Assembly (NCBI GenBank): GCA_017428215.1
Contig: JAFRRH010000052.1
Location: 1 to 64,000 of the forward strand
DNA: 64,000 bases
Direction: 5' to 3'
From: Selenomonadaceae bacterium
Lineage (GTDB): Bacteria; Bacillota; Negativicutes; Selenomonadales; Selenomonadaceae
Shown: in pieces, positions 13,447-49,925 of the stretch
How positions within the stretch are numbered: the stretch's first letter is position 1
Layout: each line of letters starts with the position of its first letter
Made by a program: the position numbers and the translations under genes
The notes under the pieces: generated by a model
The model's input: the letters and a program-made list of their open reading frames with translations, nothing else
The model's database searches: none
What the model was told of the DNA's origin: nothing

Positions 13447-13456
13447 GGTGTCGACT

Positions 13457-14818
13457 TTGATAACGATTGAAGACATACTCGAAACAAATCGCATGATAAC
13501 CGTAAACAAACTCGACGTGCGTACAATAACTATGGGCATTTCTTTAAGAGATTGCGCCCATCCGAATTTGCGCGATTTCTGCCGCAAGGTTTACGATAAA
13601 ATTACCCGCTCCGCTGAATTTTTAGTTAAGACGGGCGAGGAGATTGAAGCCGAATACGGCGTTCCGATTATCAACAAAAGAATTTCCGTCACGCCGATTG
13701 CCATTGTCGCTGAAAGTTGCAAGGCGGAAAGTTATGTTCCCGTCGCTGAAACTCTTGACCGCGCCGCCAAAGAGGTTGGCGTTAATTTTATTGGCGGCTT
13801 CAGCGCGTTGGTTGAAAAGGGCTATACGCCTGGTGACAGGATTTTAATTGAATCTATTCCGCAAGCCCTCGCCGCGACTGATTTAGTTTGTAGCTCAATT
13901 AACTTGGCGTCTACTAAGGCGGGCATAAATATGGATTGCGTCCGCGAAATGGGCGAAGTCATTAAACGGACGGCGGAGCTTACTCGCGATAAGCAAGCTA
14001 TCGGCTGTGCGAAGTTGGTAATTTTCGCCAATGCGCCCGAAGATAATCCGTTTATGGCGGGAGCGTTTCACGGTGTCAGCGAGCCAGATAAAGTTATCAA
14101 CGTCGGAGTAAGCGGTCCCGGCGTCGTCAAACACGCACTAGAAGATTTAAAGGGCGCGAATTTTACGGAGATTGCCGAGACGATTAAAAAGACGGCGTTT
14201 AAAATTACTCGCGTCGGTCAACTTGTAGCTAAAGAGGCGTCGCGTAGATTAGGCGTGCCGTTCGGAATAATTGACTTGTCATTAGCTCCCACTCCTGCAG
14301 TAGGTGATTCTGTTGCGCGTATTTTAGAGGAAATGGGACTTGAGGCTTGCGGTGCGCCGGGAACTACTGCCGCGCTTGCTTTATTAAATGACGCGGTTAA
14401 AAAGGGCGGACTTATGGCAAGTTCACACGTCGGCGGCTTGAGTGGCGCATTTATTCCCGTTAGCGAAGATGAAGGCATGATTGAGGCGGTCAAGTGTGGC
14501 TCGTTGTCGATTGAAAAGTTGGAAGCTATGACTTGCGTCTGCAGTGTCGGGTTGGATATGATTGCGGTAGCTGGCGACGTTAGCGCGGCGACTTTAAGCG
14601 GAATAATTGCAGACGAGGCGGCGATTGGCGTCGTCAACAACAAAACTACCGCCGTGCGACTTATTCCCGTACCAAATGCTAAAGTCGGCGATGTTGTCGA
14701 ATATGGCGGTTTGCTAGGCTATTGTCCGATTGTTCCCGTTAAAAATAATTGGAGTTCGGAGGCGTTCATAGCTCGCGGCGGAAGAATTCCCGCGCCTGTT
14801 AGGAGCTTAACTAATTGA
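13457..14818 (+). CDS. UPF0210 (DUF711) family protein
   Basis: About 453 residues of the PFL/UPF0210 family, which structurally resembles glycyl-radical enzyme barrels but lacks proven activity. Typical segments include ILETNRMI at the start, [59 protein letters not shown] and [21 protein letters not shown]. The TTG at 13457 with GAGGTG 6 bases upstream is preferred over GTG 13448. It follows the ACT protein after a few bases and precedes the GNAT gene by a single base, so all are in one operon. Confidence 0.93.
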
Positions 14819-14819
14819 C

Positions 14820-15266
14820 ATGGAAATTTTAATCAGAAAAATGCAACGTGGCGACGCTGAAATTGTTACGGACATGATGCGCAGATTTTACAATTCGCCC
14901 GCCTTGATAACCAACGGTTCCGAAAAAATTTTTACAGCTAATGTTGAAAATTGTTTAGGCGGCTCGCCTTACGTCGAAGGCTTTGTTTTTGTCGACGACG
15001 GAAAAATTATCGGCTACGGCATGACAGCTCGCAGTTATTCCACAGAGTTTGGCGGCGAATGTATTTGGATTGAAGACATTTACGTCGAGGCGGAATATCG
15101 CGGGCGCGGCATTGGCTCGCAATTCATCAGATACGTTAAGGCGCATTATCCCGAAAAAATTTTGCGACTTGAGGCAGAAGCGGACAATACGGTGGCTGTA
15201 ACATTTTATAAACATTTCGGTTTCAAAGAGTTGCCGTATTTGGAATTGGTTTGTAGCGGTGATTGA
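14820..15266 (+). CDS. GNAT-family N-acetyltransferase
   Basis: 148 residues with the GNAT fold. The acetyl-CoA binding motif A is IYVEAEYRGRGIGSQFI near residues 90-106 (RGxGxG), and motif B ends with NTVAVTFYKHFGFKEL. The protein acetylates an unknown small molecule or protein. The stop overlaps the nth start by 8 bases. No ribosome site is clear; the ATG is one base after the UPF0210 stop, suggesting coupling. Confidence 0.88.
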   Translation: MEILIRKMQRGDAEIVTDMMRRFYNSPALITNGSEKIFTANVENCLGGSPYVEGFVFVDDGKIIGYGMTARSYSTEFGGECIWIEDIYVEAEYRGRGIGSQFIRYVKAHYPEKILRLEAEADNTVAVTFYKHFGFKELPYLELVCSGD

Positions 15267-15900
15267 AATGGACGACAAAATTAAACTTGAAGAATTAAAA
15301 ATTTTGGAGGAGACATATCGCGGCGCAATCCCACAACTGAAATTTGATTCTGTGTTTGAATTGTTGGTTGCAGTGATATTATCCGCGCAGTGCACCGATA
15401 AGCGTGTCAATCAAGTCACACAAGTTTTATTTCCCATTGCAAACACGCCCGAAAAAATTTTACAACTCGGTCAGTCAAAGTTGGAGGAGATTATCAAGCC
15501 GTGCGGATATTTCAGAGCAAAGGCAAAACATATCGTCGAGACTTCAAAACTTTTACTGGAGAATTACGGCGGCGAAGTTCCAGGCGATTTTGACGAGCTG
15601 ATAAAGTTGCCTGGTGTCGGCAGAAAAACCGCTAACGTCGTGACAAGTGTCGCCTTTAAAAATCCCGCGATTGCCGTTGATACTCATGTTTTCCGCTTAG
15701 CCAATCGCATGAAACTTGCCGAAGGTAAAACTCCGCTTGAAGTTGAGTTAGGCTTACAGAAAATTATTCCGCGTGAAAAATGGTCGGACGCTCACCACTG
15801 GCTGATTTGGCATGGGCGCGAAATTTGCAAAGCACGTAATCCTAAGTGTGGAGATTGCCCGTTGTCGAAAGTTTGTCCGTCGTCAATGATTGGAGGCTGA
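15259..15900 (+). CDS. nth: Endonuclease III
   Basis: 213 residues, the usual length. Endonuclease III is a DNA glycosylase and AP lyase that removes oxidised pyrimidines. The helix-hairpin-helix LPGVGRKTANV carries the catalytic Lys and VDTHVFRLANR the catalytic Asp. The [4Fe-4S] ligands appear at the C-terminus as Cx6Cx2Cx5C (from CKARNPKCGDCPLSKVC). The start may be GTG 15259 or the ATG at 15268; the overlap with the upstream gene suggests translational coupling. Confidence 0.95.
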   Translation: MIEMDDKIKLEELKILEETYRGAIPQLKFDSVFELLVAVILSAQCTDKRVNQVTQVLFPIANTPEKILQLGQSKLEEIIKPCGYFRAKAKHIVETSKLLLENYGGEVPGDFDELIKLPGVGRKTANVVTSVAFKNPAIAVDTHVFRLANRMKLAEGKTPLEVELGLQKIIPREKWSDAHHWLIWHGREICKARNPKCGDCPLSKVCPSSMIGG

Positions 15901-15904
15901 TAAA

Positions 15905-17071
15905 ATGTTTAAAGTCGTACTTTGGGATTATACGGGCGAAAGCGAGGCTTGTGCCAAAGGTTATTTGCGGGACGACATTAGAATTATTCGCACGCTCCGC
16001 CCCAACGACCCCGACCAAGCGGAAGTCATTATGCGCGGCGACTATGATTTTGTTCTGATTTTTGAGCAAGGTCAACGCGAATTTTTCGATGAAATTTTTA
16101 AAATTATGCAAGCTATGAATATCTCTACGAAGAATATTATCTTCGCGAAAGATATTTACAACATGTTGAACAATCCTGACGCCGTCCGCTCGCTCTTTAA
16201 ACCGACTACCGATATTTACAATACGATTCAACGCAACACCGACTTTTTCAGCCACAAACGTTGGTATAAATACATTTCGTGTTCCGTTGAAGATCTTCAT
16301 TACGTCGCTACCGCCGATGACATGGCTATAATGCACAATATGTATGTTTTCAATCGAAGCTTTGCGTCACACGCGATAAAAAAATTTTATGAGTGGTCGA
16401 AAAAATACTATAAAGCAAATGTATCGGGGGGGGGGATTTTTCTCGACTTGGGCGCGAATATCGGCACGACGGGGCTTTATTTCCTCAAGAAGTTTGCACC
16501 TGATATGAAGTTGCTCGCCTTTGAGCCCGACGCAGAAAATTTCAAACTTCTGCGAATCAACACCATTCTCAACGACATGGAAGATAAAGTTACTCTCGTC
16601 AACTGCGGACTCGGCAACAAATTTGACGAAATGACTATGTACATAGAGACGAGCAATCCAGGATACAACAGCGTTATAAAGTTTGCGGACAGAAATTTGA
16701 CAGAAACAGTTAAAATTATTCCGTTGGACGCTTACCTTGCCGAAAACAAAATCGCCGCGTCGGAGGTCAAATACATTTGGATTGACACGGAAGGTTTTGA
16801 GCCGCAAGTTTTGCTCGGCGCGAAAAATTTACTCAGAGAAAATCCTGCGCCGATTTTTATGGAGTGTAATTTAAAAGCTTGGGATAAATCGGGTTGCTTT
16901 GAAGATATGATGACATTACTGGCAGAAAATTATTCGCACTTTATCTTGTTGCACAGAAACGGCAGTAAAACTTTTTATCCGCTTGAGGCTCTGCCAAAAC
17001 TTGAAAGACCGAATAATCCTTTCGGACAAATCGGCGATATTTTCTTGATTCGCAAGGGCACAATCGATTAA
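15905..17071 (+). CDS. FkbM-family methyltransferase with internal G10 tract
   Basis: 388 residues. The N-terminal 160 residues are a divergent region of no known family. The C-terminal part is a SAM-dependent FkbM methyltransferase: motif I is IFLDLGANIG at about 178-187, then LLAFEPDAENFKLL, VTLVNCGLGN and KYIWIDTEGFEPQVLLGA. FkbM enzymes methylate hydroxyls, commonly on polysaccharides. Codons 174-177 (Ser-Gly-Gly-Gly) lie in ten consecutive Gs directly before motif I, so a one-base slip would remove the catalytic domain. The copy shown is in frame. The start ATG has GGAGG 8 bases upstream. Confidence 0.88.
   Translation: MFKVVLWDYTGESEACAKGYLRDDIRIIRTLRPNDPDQAEVIMRGDYDFVLIFEQGQREFFDEIFKIMQAMNISTKNIIFAKDIYNMLNNPDAVRSLFKPTTDIYNTIQRNTDFFSHKRWYKYISCSVEDLHYVATADDMAIMHNMYVFNRSFASHAIKKFYEWSKKYYKANVSGGGIFLDLGANIGTTGLYFLKKFAPDMKLLAFEPDAENFKLLRINTILNDMEDKVTLVNCGLGNKFDEMTMYIETSNPGYNSVIKFADRNLTETVKIIPLDAYLAENKIAASEVKYIWIDTEGFEPQVLLGAKNLLRENPAPIFMECNLKAWDKSGCFEDMMTLLAENYSHFILLHRNGSKTFYPLEALPKLERPNNPFGQIGDIFLIRKGTID
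16426..16435 (+). repeat. Homopolymeric G10 tract inside the FkbM gene
   Basis: Ten uninterrupted Gs in coding sequence; the longest other G run I noticed is six. Tracts of this length in surface-glycan genes are classical slippage sites for phase variation. Confidence 0.95.
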
Positions 17072-17117: not shown

Positions 17118-17801
17118 ATGGCGAACGAGATTCATTTGGACAACGTTTATATCGGCGGCGCGGTTACGCTTATGGAAGATTTAGAGCGGCGCGTCGAAAA
17201 TTGGCACAAAGAAAAATCCTACGACGAAATTTTATCCGAAGCTCGTGACGGAATAAAAAAAATTTCGCCGCAGGAAATGACGCTTGACGAGTACAAATCT
17301 TACATTGAAGGGAAACTCCAAAATATTCCGCGCAATTTTACTCGTTATCGCGACGAGGTAACTGTTTGTATTTCCGACGCGGGCTTTCAAGCTATGCAGA
17401 ATGATTCGGAGTATGAAATTTGGGTTTTGGACAGCGTGCGCGAAGAGTTAAGCTTTCCGGATTATCTTTGCGGCTATCCTGGTACTTACGGACGATATGA
17501 CGTTATGCAATTCGGCGCGACTAAGGAAGATTTTCGCGGGCATATGTCGGCAATTCATAAAAACGATTCGCGCCACGTCGAAGAGGAAACTTATTGGGAG
17601 CGTCGGATTAAACGTTTAAAGGCGCGTCTCAAGGCGGAGCAAGAACTTTTCGAGCACGAACAAATTTTGCAAAAGATTAATGACGAGTCCGCGCAGGTTG
17701 AGGCGATTCAAAAGGCTAAAGAAGGCTTAACAGATCCATTTGCGCCGCAAAAACCGATTGTCGGCGTGCCTGCAAGTCATCTGCTTAGCATGTTGAATTA
17801 A
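17118..17801 (+). CDS. Unknown protein with coiled-coil tail
   Basis: 227 residues, soluble, no signal peptide. The central part contains a Gly/Tyr-rich segment (DYLCGYPGTYGRYDVMQFG) and the C-terminal third (about 155-205) is a charged helix, likely coiled coil (WERRIKRLKARLKAEQELFEHEQIL). I do not recognise the family. GGGGGAG precedes the ATG. The last four bases overlap the convergent DeoR gene. Composition resembles its neighbours, so there is no sign of recent transfer. Confidence 0.75.
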   Translation: MANEIHLDNVYIGGAVTLMEDLERRVENWHKEKSYDEILSEARDGIKKISPQEMTLDEYKSYIEGKLQNIPRNFTRYRDEVTVCISDAGFQAMQNDSEYEIWVLDSVREELSFPDYLCGYPGTYGRYDVMQFGATKEDFRGHMSAIHKNDSRHVEEETYWERRIKRLKARLKAEQELFEHEQILQKINDESAQVEAIQKAKEGLTDPFAPQKPIVGVPASHLLSMLN

Positions 17802-32119: not shown

Positions 32120-35100
32120 TTACGTATCGCTTCTGTGCGGGAGCCATTCCACTTGAATTTTAACTTCCTCGTTGGCTTTTACGTCTATGCTGTGGTTGTA
32201 GGCTTTATCGTGCCAAGCGGGCGTAATTTTGTCGAATATTGTTTTGCTGTTAATCGTCAGCTTAGTGTAGTCAATCCAAATGGGAATTCGTTTAGAGTTA
32301 TCCTTAGGGTCGCGTACATCTAATCCCATAAGAGCTAAATTAATTTTTCCGTCTGCAGTTGCTTTAGCAATGAAATCCATTTTGCCTGCATAGGATTGAA
32401 TTTGATAGCCTACCCCGCCCTTCTGTAACCAGGCAGGTTTGCGAACTTCGGCTTGATTATCCGACATGGAAAGAATTTGGAAATCGCCCTCTGTCGACTG
32501 TAATTTAACGTCCATTCTGCTACTAACATAGGGCAGGAATTTATCCACGAGCGGCTTTTCCACAGGTTTATCCGGTAAAATGTTTTCTCTATGCGGTAAC
32601 CATTCCACTTGAATTTTAACTTCCTCGTTGGCTTTTACGTCTATGCTGTGGTTGTAGGCTTTATCGTGCCAAGCGGGCGTAATTTTGTCGAATATTATTT
32701 TGTCGTTAACAGTCAGCTTAGTATAGTCAATCCAATAAGGAATTAATTTAGAGTTATCCTTGGGGTCACGTACATCTAATCCCATAAGCTTCAACTGAAT
32801 TTTTCCGTCTGCAGTTGCTTTGGCAATGAAATCCATTTTGCCTGCATAGGATTGAATTTGATAGCCGACTCCGCCCTTCTGTAACCAGGCAGGTTTGCGA
32901 ACTTCGGCTTGATTATCCGACATGGAAAGAATTTGGAAATCGCCTTTTGCCGACTGTAGTTTAACGTCCATTCTGCTACTAACATAGGGCGGGAATTTAT
33001 CAGCAATCGGCTTCTCCACAGGTTCGGGTATTGCAGGCAAAATGTCGCCTCTGTGCGGTAACCATTCAAATTGAACCTTAATTTCCTCGTTGGCTTTGGC
33101 GTCCATAGTGTAGACATAAGGTTGATCATGCCAAGCTGGCGTAATTTTGTCGAATATTATTTTGCCGTTAATCGTCAGCTTAGTGTAGTCAATCCAATAA
33201 GGAACTAATTTAGAGTTGTCCTCAGGGTCTTGAACCCACATTCCTCTAAATTCAAAACTAACTCGACCGTTTGCAGTGGCTTTGGCGACGAATTCCACTT
33301 TGCCCGCGTAGGACATAATTACATAGCCAACGCCGCCATTTTGGAACCAATCGGGTTTTATGGCTTCCGCTTTATCATCGGACACAGAAAGCAGTTCAAA
33401 ATCGCCCTCTGTTGACCAGAATTTGAAATCCACTCTGCCCGTAATGTGGTTTCTGAATTTACTGATTATCGACGTATTTTTCTCTTTAAAAAGAGCAGAG
33501 CACAGCGCAGAAATCGGAACATCATAATCCCCCAGCCGTTCGCTGAATTCATCTTTTATCGTCTCGTAAACTTCCAACACAGAAAGTTGTGCTGCATCGT
33601 TAAAGCCCGCGGTTATTGTATCATTAACGAACCTTTCCAAAATAGCGTAGCGTTGTTTCGGATTCGTCTTGAAGAATTCATGCTTACTCATAAAGTTGTC
33701 GAGAGTCTTTAGACCTAACAGGAAGGGATTCAAATGAAAATTCAGTGCTTGTTGCGGTGACTTTTTAATCCCTGTTATCGAATCATTTCTCATGCGGCGA
33801 GTATATATTATGTTCGGCACACGTAAAAACTTTTTAGCGGAAAAAATCAATCCGTAAGTCCAAATATCATCGTCGCCAATCGTTAAACCTGGGAAAAATA
33901 TCTCATTTTTTAGTAGTAGGTTACGCTTGACTAATTTATCCCAAGGCACAACCCAAAATCTATAGTTCAATATTCCTTTAACACGTTCAGATAAATCTTC
34001 AGTTTCAAGTGTTGGCTTGTCGACAAAAGGTGGCGGTTGCATTTCTGTGTCAGCAATATGAATATTTTTGATAAATTCTTCGCCTACGCCCGTCGACATG
34101 AAATATTTTTCGCAATAAACAACATCAGCGTCGTATTTTTTTGCGAGTTCGTACATCTCCTCCAGAGCTGTCTTCGTTAACATATCGTCGTTATCCATGT
34201 TATAAACATATTCGCCGCTCGAATGGCTGAGTCCAATGTTCCTAGCAATCGCGCCACTACCAAAATTTTTATCTGTATTATACAGTTTTAGTCGTCCGCC
34301 AAATTTTTCAACGTAGCTTTCGACAATTTTTACGCTGTTATCAGTTGAGCAATCGTCGACGATGATAACTTCAAAATCTTTAAATGTTTGCGCAAGAAGG
34401 CTATCCAAACATTCAGCGATATATTTCTCGGCATTGTACATAGGAATAATAACCGAAATTGCCGTGAGATTTTCCGTGATAGATATAGGGGCGAATTTCT
34501 TCTGATCAATTTTGCTTTCAGTCGAAAAAGCTTTATCAATATCAGCAATATGCGGGAGCCACTCCACTTGAACTTTAATTTCTTCGTTGGCTTTTATGTC
34601 CATGCTGTGGTTGTAGGGTTTATCGTGCCAAGCGGGTGTACGCTTGTCAATTATCGGCTTGCCATTAATCAACAACTTCGTGTAATCAATCCAAGCGGGA
34701 ATACGTTTAGAGTTGTCCTTTGGGTCACGTACATCTAATCCCATAAGCTTCAATTGAATTTTTCCGTCTGCGGTGGCTTTAGCAACGTACTCCATTTTCC
34801 CTGCATAAGACTGAATTTGATAGCCTACTCCGCCCTTCTGTAACCAAGCAGGTTTGCGAACTTCAGCTTGATTATCCGACATGGAAAGAATTTGGAAATC
34901 GCCTTTTGACGACTGCAGTTTAACGTCCATTCTGCTACTAACATAGGGCGGGAATTTATCAACAATCGGCTTTTCTATAAGTTTGGGAGCCTCTAGCAAA
35001 TTGTCAGCTCTGTGCGGGAGCCATTCAAATTGAACCTTAATTTCCTCGTTGGCTTTGGCGTCCATAGTGTAAACATAAGGTTGATCATGCCAAGCGGGCG

Positions 35101-37924
35101 TAATCTTGTCAATTATTGACTTGCCGTTAATCGTCAGCTTAGTGTAGTCAATCCAATAAGGAACTAATTTAGAGTTATTATCAGGGTCTTGAACCCACAT
35201 TCCTCTAAACTCAAAACTAACTCGACCGTTTGCAGTGGCTTTGGCAACGAATTCCACTTTACCCGCATAGGACATAATTACGTAGCCAACGCCGCCATTT
35301 TGGAACCAATCGGGCTTGAGAACTTCAGCGTTATCGTCGGACACGGAAAGAAGTTCAAAATTGTCCTCTGCTGACCAGAATTTGAAGTCCACTCTGCCCG
35401 TAACATATGGCAAGAATTTTTCCACCGGTTTAATCGATAAAATATCGCCACTATGCGGGAGCCATTCAAATTGAACCTTAATTTCCTCGTTGGCTTTGGC
35501 GTCCATAAAGTAAACATAAGGTTGATCATGCCAAGCGGGCGTAATTTTATCGAATATTGTCCGCCCGTTTATCGTCAGCCTGGTATAGTCTATCCAGTAC
35601 GGAATTAATTTAGATTTATCTTCCGGGTTTTGAACCCATATTCCCCTAAACTCAAAACTAACTCGACCATTTGCAGTGGCTTTGGCAACGAATTCTACTT
35701 TGCCCGCATAGGACATAATTACGTAGCCGACGCCATCCTTTTGGAACCAATCAGGTTTGAGAACTTCAGCTTTATCATCGGACACGGAAAGAAGTTCAAA
35801 ATTGCCCTCTGCTGACCAGAATTTGAAATCTACTCTACCAGTAAAATAGCGGCTGAATTTACGCATAATCTGCGTTTGAGTATCAATTTTTGAGAAATCT
35901 GACAACGCATATAAGAAGAATTCCATCAAAATCGTTTGTTCAGAATCAGTGAATATCTCTTTTAAAACTCTATTGCGATCAGGATCAGAAATTTCATGAT
36001 AAATTTTTTGTATATACAGTTCCCATATTTCCTTTAAATAGGTGCTGAGGGCAATGCGTTTGATTTCAGGATTTTGTTGAAAGAACTCTTTTTTGCTCAA
36101 AAATTCATCTAAATACTTAAAGCCGAATTTTAACGAACTCAGGTATGTTTTTAATTGCTGTAAGGGTTCACGCTTTTGATGATATAAAGAGTTTTCACGT
36201 ATACGATAAAAATTAACTGCATATGGCACTCGTACAAATCTTTTTGCAGTGTAAGCCATGCAACAAGTCGCTAAAAAATCCTGAATAATATTTTTCGTGA
36301 AATGGATTTCATTTTCTATCAGGAAATCGCGACGAATTAATTTAGTCCACAGTTCCCATAAGAATTTGCGATCGTAACAATCTTGCACGCGTTGAGGAAT
36401 ATTAAAAGGGATTAAAGTCGGTTCCGATACAGGACCGCCCTGTTGATAGCCATGCGGTTCGAGGTTCTTTCTAAATTCGACGTCATTCCAATGTTTTTCT
36501 GGCACCCAATAATATTTATCGCAAGCAACCACGTCGGCATCAAATTTTTTTGCGGTAGTGTAAAGTTTTTCGAGCGCGTCGGGGGTTATGGTGTCGTCAT
36601 TGTCCATTATGAATAAATATTCGCCACGCGACAAGGCAACGCCAATATTTCCCGGCTCTCCTGGACTGCCAGTATTTTTGTCTGTTTTTGTAAGTTTGAG
36701 CCGCCCGCTGAAGCGCGTCCCGTAACTGTTAACGATTTGGATACTATTATCGGTTGAGCAATCATCAACCGCGATAACATCAAAATCTTGAAAAGTCTGA
36801 TCGAGGAGGCTGTCAAGACATTCCCCGATATATTTTTCAGCGTTGTACATCGGAATAATAACCGTGATGCATTTTTGATTCGTAGCTGATTGGAGTCGAT
36901 AGGTATTGTTAAACAGAAACGACGTAAACGCGCTATCGTCGCCTAATTCTTTTCTTAAGAGCTCGTCAACATTATAGGGTGGAGATTCATCATAGACCTT
37001 TTTGAGTAAATATATAATTTCATTCATAAAGGCATTAAATAAAGCATATTTTAAATTGGGTCTATGCGAAAAAAATTCACTAGTACTTAAAAATTTGTCG
37101 ATATAATTTATTCCGTTCTTTAAAGTTAATGCGTATTTGTGAATTATTTCTGTCACACCAAGATTTATGTGATCTTTTACTGACGAATCTTTCCTTAAGC
37201 GATATAGATAAAAAGTATTCGGCATAACGAGATAATTTTTTGCGCAACAAATTTCGCACATAGTAAAAATCATATCTTCGGCATAAATATCTGCAAATCG
37301 AATTTCATTTTCGAACATAAAATCCCGGCGAACCATTTGCAGGCAGACGCTCCACGTTAGCCACCTTTTTTGACAGAAATCTTTAACTCGCTCTTCAATG
37401 TCTTTCGTCAAAAGTGTAGGTTGCGTTGTAAAAATTCTTTCTCCTGACGGGTGAACAGTAGGCTTTACGTTTTTCCTATATTCGGCGTCGTTATAATGTT
37501 CTTCGGGAATACCATACCATTTTTCGCAGTGAACAACGTCCGCGTTAAATTTTTTTGCCGCTTTATACATTTCTTCAAGTGCAGTTGGCGTAATTGTATC
37601 ATCGGGGTCAATAAAAGATATATATTCGCCGGTAGAAAGTTCAATGCCGATATTACGCGGTTCACCTGCCCCGCCAGAATTTTTTTCCGTTTGTGCAATA
37701 GTGAGCCGCCCTTTAAATTTCGATTCATAGCTTTTGACGACTTCGCGGCTTTTATCTGTTGAGCAATCATCTACTACGATAACATCAAAATCTTGGAACG
37801 TCTGAGCTAGAAGACTGTCGAGACATTCGCCAACATATTTTTCCACATTATACAGTGGGATAACTACAGAAATTGCAGAAGTTGCCCGGGGGGAATTATT
37901 TAACCAGTTAACAACGTTTTCCAT
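32120..37924 (-). CDS. Giant glycosyltransferase: three GT2 domains and six beta-rich repeats
   Basis: 1934 residues. Order from the N-terminus: GT2 domain at about 15-330 (VVIPLYNVEKYVGECLDSLL, IDPDDTITP), GT2 at about 355-690 (VIIPMYNAEKY, MDNDDTITP), three roughly 140-residue modules at about 690-1126, GT2 at about 1156-1490 (VIIPMYNAEKYIAECLDS, MDNDDMLTK), then three more modules to the end. All three GT2 domains keep VDDCS and a DxDD metal motif. Modules come in two types, RVDFKFWS (1, 2, 4) and RMDVKLQS (3, 5, 6), each ending EWLPH; I cannot name their fold, though a carbohydrate-binding sandwich is plausible. No signal peptide. It probably assembles a surface polysaccharide. Confidence 0.85.
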   Translation of the reverse strand: MENVVNWLNNSPRATSAISVVIPLYNVEKYVGECLDSLLAQTFQDFDVIVVDDCSTDKSREVVKSYESKFKGRLTIAQTEKNSGGAGEPRNIGIELSTGEYISFIDPDDTITPTALEEMYKAAKKFNADVVHCEKWYGIPEEHYNDAEYRKNVKPTVHPSGERIFTTQPTLLTKDIEERVKDFCQKRWLTWSVCLQMVRRDFMFENEIRFADIYAEDMIFTMCEICCAKNYLVMPNTFYLYRLRKDSSVKDHINLGVTEIIHKYALTLKNGINYIDKFLSTSEFFSHRPNLKYALFNAFMNEIIYLLKKVYDESPPYNVDELLRKELGDDSAFTSFLFNNTYRLQSATNQKCITVIIPMYNAEKYIGECLDSLLDQTFQDFDVIAVDDCSTDNSIQIVNSYGTRFSGRLKLTKTDKNTGSPGEPGNIGVALSRGEYLFIMDNDDTITPDALEKLYTTAKKFDADVVACDKYYWVPEKHWNDVEFRKNLEPHGYQQGGPVSEPTLIPFNIPQRVQDCYDRKFLWELWTKLIRRDFLIENEIHFTKNIIQDFLATCCMAYTAKRFVRVPYAVNFYRIRENSLYHQKREPLQQLKTYLSSLKFGFKYLDEFLSKKEFFQQNPEIKRIALSTYLKEIWELYIQKIYHEISDPDRNRVLKEIFTDSEQTILMEFFLYALSDFSKIDTQTQIMRKFSRYFTGRVDFKFWSAEGNFELLSVSDDKAEVLKPDWFQKDGVGYVIMSYAGKVEFVAKATANGRVSFEFRGIWVQNPEDKSKLIPYWIDYTRLTINGRTIFDKITPAWHDQPYVYFMDAKANEEIKVQFEWLPHSGDILSIKPVEKFLPYVTGRVDFKFWSAEDNFELLSVSDDNAEVLKPDWFQNGGVGYVIMSYAGKVEFVAKATANGRVSFEFRGMWVQDPDNNSKLVPYWIDYTKLTINGKSIIDKITPAWHDQPYVYTMDAKANEEIKVQFEWLPHRADNLLEAPKLIEKPIVDKFPPYVSSRMDVKLQSSKGDFQILSMSDNQAEVRKPAWLQKGGVGYQIQSYAGKMEYVAKATADGKIQLKLMGLDVRDPKDNSKRIPAWIDYTKLLINGKPIIDKRTPAWHDKPYNHSMDIKANEEIKVQVEWLPHIADIDKAFSTESKIDQKKFAPISITENLTAISVIIPMYNAEKYIAECLDSLLAQTFKDFEVIIVDDCSTDNSVKIVESYVEKFGGRLKLYNTDKNFGSGAIARNIGLSHSSGEYVYNMDNDDMLTKTALEEMYELAKKYDADVVYCEKYFMSTGVGEEFIKNIHIADTEMQPPPFVDKPTLETEDLSERVKGILNYRFWVVPWDKLVKRNLLLKNEIFFPGLTIGDDDIWTYGLIFSAKKFLRVPNIIYTRRMRNDSITGIKKSPQQALNFHLNPFLLGLKTLDNFMSKHEFFKTNPKQRYAILERFVNDTITAGFNDAAQLSVLEVYETIKDEFSERLGDYDVPISALCSALFKEKNTSIISKFRNHITGRVDFKFWSTEGDFELLSVSDDKAEAIKPDWFQNGGVGYVIMSYAGKVEFVAKATANGRVSFEFRGMWVQDPEDNSKLVPYWIDYTKLTINGKIIFDKITPAWHDQPYVYTMDAKANEEIKVQFEWLPHRGDILPAIPEPVEKPIADKFPPYVSSRMDVKLQSAKGDFQILSMSDNQAEVRKPAWLQKGGVGYQIQSYAGKMDFIAKATADGKIQLKLMGLDVRDPKDNSKLIPYWIDYTKLTVNDKIIFDKITPAWHDKAYNHSIDVKANEEVKIQVEWLPHRENILPDKPVEKPLVDKFLPYVSSRMDVKLQSTEGDFQILSMSDNQAEVRKPAWLQKGGVGYQIQSYAGKMDFIAKATADGKINLALMGLDVRDPKDNSKRIPIWIDYTKLTINSKTIFDKITPAWHDKAYNHSIDVKANEEVKIQVEWLPHRSDT

Positions 37925-47096: not shown

Positions 47097-49925
47097 ATGA
47101 ATGCCCAAGATGTTATCAAAAATTTTATGGCTAAACTCGCCACGCACGGTTTAGCTTATTCCAGTTCCGTAGGCACAAATATGTTAAATGCCGCAATCCG
47201 CGCTTGCTCTAGCTATGCTAATATTAACGCCGTTATAAAAGCTATGAAAACTGACCAAATTGCCGCCGAAAAACAAGCCGTCAAAGAAATTTTCGGCAAA
47301 TCTAAATTAATTTCCGCGCTCACCTCCGCCCAAAGAAAACAGCTGGCAATTAATAACTCTAAAGCTAAGGCGTTGAGCAATGCTTTCTATAACGGTGCAA
47401 CCAATGACGCCGCTAAGAAAATTACCGTCGAGCAAGTCCTCTTGGAGCGCAAAGCTTATATCTTCCTCGAAAAATATTGCGGTATTAAATTGCCGACGCG
47501 CTATTGGGTTAACGCCAGCGGAAAAGTTACAAATTCCGGCGACAAAACCGGTAACACTGACACCGGCGCGATAACCGGATCCGACGCAGGCGGCGACACC
47601 GTTAAAACTGCCAAAACGATTATCAACGAAACTTTTATTAACACTTACACTGCAACGACGACTGCCGCGCAGATTATCAACACCGGCTCCCGCGATTGGG
47701 TTGTTCAAGCTACGAAAAAAGCTGATACAATAACTTCAGGCGGCGCAGATTCAATTAATGCAGACGCGGGTAACGATATTATTTTTGCCAATGCAAGCGG
47801 CGCAACGATTACAACGGGCGCGGGCAATGATACCGTAATAATTTCTAAAGATGTCAACGATATTACGCTTAATGATTTGAACGCTAGCGACGCTTTGATA
47901 ATCGACGGTACTTTTAAAGTTGGTTTCGCGCAGGTTGAAGATAATCTGCTCGTCATAACCGATAAAACAAGCGGCAGAAAAATTCGCATTCCCTCCAACG
48001 CAATCTACGCCAAAGTTAACGGCGTGACTATCAATAATTGGATTAACGGCGCGACAATAAATAACGTTGCTTTAAAATACAACGATACAAGCGGCGTTGA
48101 GGTCGATTTGGACACCGTTGACACTTCCAAGACGGGCAAAGTTAAAGTTAATAATAACGACGTTGGGAACTTATCAAGCACGTATCCTAATGCTACGACG
48201 TTCACGCGCAACGGTTTGACGATTAAATTGCTCGGCGAAACTTCCGACACCGACGGCAATCCGAATAATATTGAATCAAAAACTTTAGCCGAATTAACAG
48301 ACGACCAAAAAACGATTATCGCGGGTCTGTTTAAGTGGTGGGGTGCCGATTGCCTTAAACTTAACGAAGAAAGCTACGGTATAGGTTTTAATTCGTCGAC
48401 GGCAATGATTAAAGATATTGAGCTGTATTTTTACGACGGGCAAGGCAAGAGTAGCACGCTGGCGACTGTTTGGAATTGGCAACGCTACGATAGCGACGGA
48501 TATGCAACGCGGCTCATGCTAAGTATCAACATGGATTACTATAAAAATATCAAAGCTGATAACATGGACGGTAGCTCTAGCAAAAGCAGCGCGATTTATT
48601 TGGATAGAGCTTTGGCGCACGAATTTACACATGCGGTTATGGCGACTAATATAAATTTCTTTAACAGCTTGCCAATATTTATCAAAGAAGGTTCAGCCGA
48701 ACTCACGCACGGCATTGACGACGTTCGCGGCTCCGATATTTTCGGCGTGGCTTATAATGCCACTCGATTAAGTAATTCTCTGAACGTAAAAAACAGTACC
48801 ACTAAAACAAACGACAGTTACGCGGGCGGCTATATGTTCCTACGCTATTTGGCTAAGCAAGCCGCTACTCAAAATGCGTTCGGAGAAATTACCGCTAAAG
48901 TAAATCTCAACCAGAACGGGAATTATTACATAAGCGGGAATTCAACTTTAGAAACGGCAAGTCGTTCCTCAAAGGCGATAAAATTGGGCAAGTTGGCGAG
49001 TAAAGTTTATACTGTGACGGATACGGGCGTTCATCAAATTATTAACGGCAAAAAAGGCGTTAAAGTTGTCGGACTTACTTCAAATGACACTTACAACGGC
49101 ACGAGCGGCGCGGACACCGTTCAAACTGCTGAGGGCTCCAATGTAATCACGGGCGCGGGCAAGGACAGCATAAAAGTTTACGGACAATACGCGACAATCA
49201 GCGCGGGTGCGGGCAACGATACTGTACAAGTTATGAATGGCTCGCATCACCTAATCGATTTGGGCGCAGGAAATAATCTGCTGAACTTCACGAGCAAATA
49301 CAACTATCACAACAGTATAACGGGCGGCACCGGAAACGACATCATCAAAGGCGGCAGTAACGGTTATTTTAATAACATAATTGACCTTAGCGACGGGAAA
49401 AATAAAGTTCAGCTATATTACGGCGAAGAAAATATGATAACGACTGGCGCGGGCAAGGACTTAATCAGCATTGGCGGCGGAGCGAGCAATTCAGTTAATG
49501 CGGGCGGCGGCAATGATACTCTTTACGTCTACGGAAAAAATAATACAGTCGAAGGCGGCGCAGGTAACGATTCAATTTATGGTGGCGACGGCGCGGATTT
49601 ATTTTATGGCGGTAAAGGCAACGATACACTCTGGGGCGGTGGCGGCAATGATTCACTTTATGGCGGCGCAGGCAATGATACGTTCATTTATAAGCCTGGC
49701 GACGGCACCGATACGATTTTTGATTACCAGAGCGGAGACATTTTGCAAATTTTAACAACGAACGGGACGACAGGCGGAACTTTCACTAAGTCAGAGTTCA
49801 CAAATGGAGACTTGACACTTACAATCAGCGGCGGCGGCAAAATTATTCTCGACGACGTTAGCAAAGGCGATTCGGTTAATATAAACGGCAAAAATTACAC
49901 GATTGGAAGCAAAGGTTTAAGTTAG
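47097..49925 (+). CDS. RTX protein with HExxH metalloprotease-like domain
   Basis: 942 residues, no signal peptide. A helical N-terminal 150 residues is followed by a short RTX block (about 200-255), a middle domain with HEFTHAVMAT near residue 508 (HExxH, a zinc-protease motif) and, about 17 residues later, EGSAEL, which could supply the third ligand. Classical nonapeptides (GGxGNDTLx) run from about 670 to 860. RTX proteins of this form are exported by type I secretion and folded by calcium; no secretion genes are present here. AAAGGAG lies before the ATG. It stands divergent to the Fur-family gene. Confidence 0.85.
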   Translation: MNAQDVIKNFMAKLATHGLAYSSSVGTNMLNAAIRACSSYANINAVIKAMKTDQIAAEKQAVKEIFGKSKLISALTSAQRKQLAINNSKAKALSNAFYNGATNDAAKKITVEQVLLERKAYIFLEKYCGIKLPTRYWVNASGKVTNSGDKTGNTDTGAITGSDAGGDTVKTAKTIINETFINTYTATTTAAQIINTGSRDWVVQATKKADTITSGGADSINADAGNDIIFANASGATITTGAGNDTVIISKDVNDITLNDLNASDALIIDGTFKVGFAQVEDNLLVITDKTSGRKIRIPSNAIYAKVNGVTINNWINGATINNVALKYNDTSGVEVDLDTVDTSKTGKVKVNNNDVGNLSSTYPNATTFTRNGLTIKLLGETSDTDGNPNNIESKTLAELTDDQKTIIAGLFKWWGADCLKLNEESYGIGFNSSTAMIKDIELYFYDGQGKSSTLATVWNWQRYDSDGYATRLMLSINMDYYKNIKADNMDGSSSKSSAIYLDRALAHEFTHAVMATNINFFNSLPIFIKEGSAELTHGIDDVRGSDIFGVAYNATRLSNSLNVKNSTTKTNDSYAGGYMFLRYLAKQAATQNAFGEITAKVNLNQNGNYYISGNSTLETASRSSKAIKLGKLASKVYTVTDTGVHQIINGKKGVKVVGLTSNDTYNGTSGADTVQTAEGSNVITGAGKDSIKVYGQYATISAGAGNDTVQVMNGSHHLIDLGAGNNLLNFTSKYNYHNSITGGTGNDIIKGGSNGYFNNIIDLSDGKNKVQLYYGEENMITTGAGKDLISIGGGASNSVNAGGGNDTLYVYGKNNTVEGGAGNDSIYGGDGADLFYGGKGNDTLWGGGGNDSLYGGAGNDTFIYKPGDGTDTIFDYQSGDILQILTTNGTTGGTFTKSEFTNGDLTLTISGGGKIILDDVSKGDSVNINGKNYTIGSKGLS

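Follow-up and report, generated by a model that had tools for sequence, protein, structure and literature searches.

Within the genome of an uncultured member of the Selenomonadaceae, a gene for an FkbM-family methyltransferase carries ten consecutive G residues in the middle of its reading frame, just ahead of the SAM-binding motif of the predicted enzyme. The question raised by this locus is whether the tract acts as a slippage-driven switch of the gene, as had been proposed from a reading of the sequence alone, or whether it is a stable run or an error. We examined the tract in the 64,000-nucleotide stretch of DNA in which it was noticed (the window; contig JAFRRH010000052.1 of assembly GCA_017428215.1), in the source genome as a whole, which is a Selenomonadaceae MAG of 2.82 Mb and 88.6% completeness, and in genomes of the same genus and family.

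Results

The FkbM-family SAM-dependent methyltransferase gene extends on the forward strand from an ATG at 15905 to a stop at 17071 and encodes 388 amino acids in a frame that is at present full length (ON). Its product matches PF05050 (Methyltransferase FkbM domain) over residues 181-341 with an E-value of 2.8e-15 and a score of 57.3 bits against a curated cut-off of 22.7, and a GGAGG at 15892-15896 (+), which overlaps the 3' end of the upstream nth gene and lies 8 bases ahead of the ATG, is a putative Shine-Dalgarno element. The tract (16426-16435, +) begins at the third base of codon 174 and runs through codons 175-177 (TCG GGG GGG GGG, read as Ser-Gly-Gly-Gly) and precedes the SAM-binding DLGANIG motif (16445-16465, +; residues 181-187), which is nearly invariant among 18 aligned homologs; the count and frame given in the sequence-only reading are exact. 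That reading had also claimed that a change of one G would remove the catalytic domain, and the computed products agree: G9 gives 200 and G11 gives 199 amino acids, both without the DLGANIG motif and the catalytic domain, and G13 restores a protein of 389 amino acids.

An AlphaFold2 model of the protein (pLDDT 91) predicts a Rossmann SAM-methyltransferase fold like that of the FkbM methyltransferase 2py6, the closest solved structure (rank 1, Foldseek E-value 4.2e-12). Superposition on 2py6 gave a VIA Z of 14.8 over 255 residues with an rmsd of 13.7, a value which indicates that the domains of the model are arranged differently. The tract residues are placed in a loop between the helix at 155-169 and the strand at 178-182, which opens the catalytic Rossmann fold, and aligned homologs show SAG, STG or SDG at this position. 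One glycine more or fewer should be harmless in such a loop, which would explain how a tract can be accommodated here. The sugars of LPS and of macrolides are O-methylated by characterised members of the FkbM family, and by family knowledge a glycan would be the substrate here. Rhizobium LPS is the example cited for FkbM O-methylation in PMC2651432.

The gene lies between endonuclease III (nth; 15259-15900, +; Pfam HhH-GPD) and an ORF for an uncharacterised protein of 227 amino acids without a Pfam match (17118-17801, +). No glycan gene cluster was found around it; its neighbours are nth, a GNAT and the uncharacterised protein. In the relative G131, the counterpart of the 17118 gene comes straight after nth and no FkbM gene separates the two, so the FkbM gene appears to have been inserted here; in L180 the copy of the 227-aa protein directly after nth is 82% identical. 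FkbM paralogs in L097, L058 and L054 are located directly 3' of a radical SAM gene, those in L097 and L058 also directly before a GGDEF gene, and radical SAM genes bear tracts themselves in L132, L138 and L123. Elsewhere in the window, a single ORF of 1934 amino acids (32120-37924, -) encodes three GT2 glycosyltransferase domains, and a 942-aa RTX-repeat ORF (47097-49925, +) has no preceding G tract, unlike several RTX genes of the same genome.

The window contains one G run of six, none of seven to nine and the single run of ten, which agrees with the sequence-only reading that no other G run exceeds six, and the G10 tract is its only G or C run of seven or more; a first-order Markov model predicts 0.008 runs of ten per window. 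Across both strands of the 2.82 Mb genome there are 50 G6, 8 G7, 13 G8, 12 G9, 14 G10, 1 G11 and 1 G13 runs, against 263, 51, 9.7, 1.9 and 0.36 expected for G6 to G10 by the same model, which was trained on the window and over-predicts G4-G7. Runs of six and seven are thus depleted and those of nine and ten in large excess, and the second peak at G8-G10 is beyond chance. The 41 runs of eight or more all lie in the interior of contigs, in most cases between coding sequences. One of them, C48:65398, is 1.4 kb past the end of the window; it could be given no confident class, nor could C22:83993, C22:85117 and C63:11480, and the G8 tracts C12:67294 and C64:813 and the C8 in the phage primase at C11:20086 may be chance runs. 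None of 20 control sites with G6 splits two overlapping frames. Of ten control genes typed by Pfam, most have housekeeping roles (RelA/SpoT, folate enzymes, transporters), while one is a GT2 and another a nucleotidyltransferase. The G6 runs lie mostly at gene 5' ends, a position consistent with ribosome-binding sites, and were rejected as weak switches.

All 41 tract loci were taken with their flanks and their genes typed by Pfam. They include three FkbM genes (that of the window among them), TylF and other methyltransferases, GT2, GT11, two GT61, GT92, RTX and three DUF1919 genes, two of these assigned by Pfam scan and one from its location and sequence. Acyltransferases, a hexapeptide transferase, an epimerase and a TupA-like ATP-grasp protein are also represented, as are UbiA, a citrate lyase ligase, a LytTR regulator and a phage primase; the functions of most tract genes would lie in glycan synthesis or at the cell surface. 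At 12 or more loci of the source genome the tract is exactly the point at which one of two overlapping frames gives way to the other (OFF), most clearly in TylF, GT2, GT11, both GT61, the three tandem DUF1919 genes and the FkbM gene of C43, whose Pfam domain is divided over two frames at its tract. Since the genome is a MAG, pseudogenes or consensus errors may account for some of these breaks. The tandem DUF1919 copies have identical bases beside tracts of G13, G8 and G10, and all three are OFF because the reading frame needs a multiple of three Gs; in genome G126, promoter copies with a common flank carry G6 or G9, the length differences in both cases being between copies and not within a clone. 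Two C runs were also noted: a C9 on the coding strand at C45:38344 (L034:2545-2553, G000:C45) adds Pro-Pro-Pro to the leader of an ORF that resembles Flp pilin (GQGVVEYGLILGFVAVIG), and a C8 lies near the N-terminus of a phage-type primase/helicase ORF with PriCT-2, Toprim and D5_N (L012:2287-5001).

A separate class of tracts is found between promoter boxes. In the source genome, TTGACA, a spacer of 19-20 bases with a G tract, and GATAAT stand ahead of three RTX genes and of a long ORF whose repeats are RTX-like, and an AAA-ATPase gene has TTGACA-16-TATAAT with G8 inside the spacer. Of 46 genomes in the genus, 17 have TTGACA-Gn-TATAAT-like patterns, with none for a reversed-pattern control. 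The spacer measures 19 bases in 17 of the 29 parsed loci, and this commonest length of 19 rather than 17 suggests that the usual state is a weakened promoter. RTX repeats occur in the downstream ORF at 13 of the 29; other ORFs behind poly-G promoters, named from their sequence starts only, resemble flagellin, radical SAM proteins or GT2 enzymes. Examples from across the genus, often before RTX-repeat genes, are L010, L013, L017, L028, L024 and L148-L177, and in L153 (G098:C10) the ORF has a flagellin-like N-terminus. With the promoter tracts included, the source genome is estimated to hold about 30 poly-G switches, mostly in surface-related genes.

Related genomes were also examined for a fixed tract length in the FkbM subfamily, the pattern that the sequence-only reading had set against a switch. 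A fixed, conserved tract was rejected, since the closest orthologs (64-68% identity) have no tract and others have tracts of differing length. A tract is present at the codon of the window gene in three lineages (G10 in the window, G8 in L053, G9 in L078) and at codon ~100 in L056 (G13), L058 from Quinella 1Q7 (G7), L059 (G9), L075 (G9), L076 (G7) and both genes of L077 (G9), and the frame is broken at the tract in L056, L058 and L076. The tree pairs the window gene with the tract-less L044 as its sister (97/93) and L053 with the tract-less L052 (99/98), for which independent gains at one codon would be the simplest reading and losses the alternative.

Homologs of the FkbM protein with 46-67% identity come from uncultured Selenomonadaceae or Selenomonadales MAGs, mostly from ruminants, and include Quinella sp. 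1Q7. The genome appears Quinella-like, and its genus is probably placed near Quinella, because the UPF0210-like protein of the window (13448-14818) is 94% identical in Quinella 1Q7 versus 86-93% in several genomes listed under the same genus. Tracts of nine or more number 21 per genome at the median (range 4-88) in 13 genomes of the genus and 3 in 108 genomes from other genera of the family, two or three of which are also rich. Some tracts in fragmented MAGs are located near contig ends (e.g. G181:C30:12-21 and G175:C193:14-23) and may be artefacts. Genome G040 of the same genus has 88 G tracts, mostly G10-G14, with GT8 and FkbM genes among the tract genes, and its loci L131, L133, L135, L140, L143, L144 and L145 are similar-sized genes, two of them GT8, of which some are in frame and others split at the tract. 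MutS1 is present and full length in the source genome, and loss of mismatch repair was rejected on this ground as the cause of the many tracts.

Discussion

The testable sequence-level predictions of a slippage-switched contingency locus, as first proposed for this tract, are all borne out: truncation, an excess of tracts, OFF alleles split at the tract, length differences between copies, repeated gain and mostly surface-type functions of the tract genes. The G10 tract is very probably a slippage on/off switch, a reading that these sequence comparisons support well, and we put at about 0.86 the probability that it is a contingency locus of the frame-switch type within a genome-wide set of poly-G switches that would diversify the cell surface. 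During replication, slipped-strand mispairing would add or remove single Gs in the tract; cells with 10 or 13 Gs would produce the methyltransferase of 388 or 389 amino acids (ON), and other lengths would stop after about 200 amino acids, consisting of the N-terminal ~177 residues and a short out-of-frame tail (OFF), such that the population would be a mixture of ON and OFF cells. Most of the roughly 30 switches would act on the frames of glycan-modifying enzymes and some as promoter spacers before RTX-type surface or secreted proteins, and their combined effect would be a more varied cell surface, with phages, grazing protozoa or host factors in the rumen as plausible targets of this defence. 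That switching is ongoing in the source species, that the enzyme acts on a glycan or other surface substrate, and what selects for variation are inferences. The absence of the tract from the closest orthologs is one counterpoint. Intact MutS1 is another, as it would lower slippage rates; Neisseria and Haemophilus switch despite the presence of mismatch repair, and the tract here would likewise switch with mismatch repair working.

A chance run of Gs that encodes a glycine loop could instead be neutral and effectively stable, leaving the gene constitutively on, and such a run would be compatible with a loop that tolerates SAG, STG and SDG in homologs, with the in-frame length of the present tract and with closest orthologs that manage without one. 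We regard this as improbable given that ten Gs are inherently slippery, that neighbouring copies differ in tract length, that relatives carry OFF alleles and that L053 and L078 have tracts at the same codon, in addition to the genome-wide second peak at G8-G10. A frameshift might also be resolved during expression, with ribosomal or polymerase slippage letting a single allele give full-length as well as truncated protein, in a ratio tuned by tract length. Long homopolymers do cause transcriptional slippage in other bacteria, and several OFF alleles keep their downstream frames intact; the usual slippery sequence is nevertheless poly-A/T rather than poly-G, no observation specifically favours this mechanism and it cannot apply to tracts in promoter spacers, so we consider it very improbable.

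That the tracts are products of assembly or sequencing, through two-colour Illumina poly-G or homopolymer consensus errors, is hardly credible. The genomes are MAGs and some tracts in other genomes fall within tens of bases of contig ends, yet those of the source genome are all interior and usually flanked by coding sequence, the pattern recurs in MAGs of several independent projects, and the tracts occur at homologous codons and precisely between promoter boxes.

Comparable systems have been described in other bacteria. In Haemophilus influenzae 86-028NP, ntHI0694 encodes an FkbM-family methyltransferase with a (G)12 tract, for which its authors propose a bearing on O-methylation of LPS (PMC2651432). 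Both genes belong to the FkbM family and carry a homopolymeric G tract within the ORF, but the tract of ntHI0694 is at the 5' end of the gene and that of the window gene is mid-gene, just before the SAM motif; the phyla are unrelated, and the 86-028NP genome is dominated by tetranucleotide repeats rather than many poly-G tracts. The Campylobacter phasome is similar in tract number per genome, length range and gene types, being a multi-locus poly-G/C system of mostly G8-G11 and mostly intra-ORF tracts (median 20 per genome in C. jejuni), whose genes include many methyltransferases, sugar transferases and radical SAM enzymes (PMC6321876). It differs in that the host here is an uncultured rumen Negativicutes with intact MutS1 and a large class of RTX promoter spacers. 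For promoters, PMC3639595 describes a poly-G tract in the porA promoter that alters expression of this outer-membrane protein in Neisseria meningitidis; the TTGACA-Gn-TATAAT class of the Quinella-like genus would work in the same way, although the G10 tract itself is not of the promoter class and the promoter tracts here mainly drive RTX genes. No report on phase variation in Quinella, Selenomonas, Negativicutes or Veillonella, or on rumen contingency loci, was found in the open-licence literature, a weak indication of novelty; the type of switch is already known, and its host lineage and scale appear to be new.

We think it likely that an uncultured rumen genus around Quinella has a large poly-G phasome, with 4-88 tracts of nine or more Gs per genome, in which frame switches in glycan enzymes are combined with promoter-spacer switches of RTX genes and a flagellin-like gene in at least one genome, and in which tracts have arisen repeatedly at one codon of a single enzyme family. 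If so, poly-G phase variation at many loci of one genome, a strategy known mainly from pathogens, would also operate in uncultured rumen bacteria that are not known to be pathogenic. Quinella-like bacteria are abundant in some low-methane sheep (PMC9585023), and their surface traits would, if this reading is true, differ from cell to cell, which would matter for phage sensitivity, protozoal grazing and attempts at culture.
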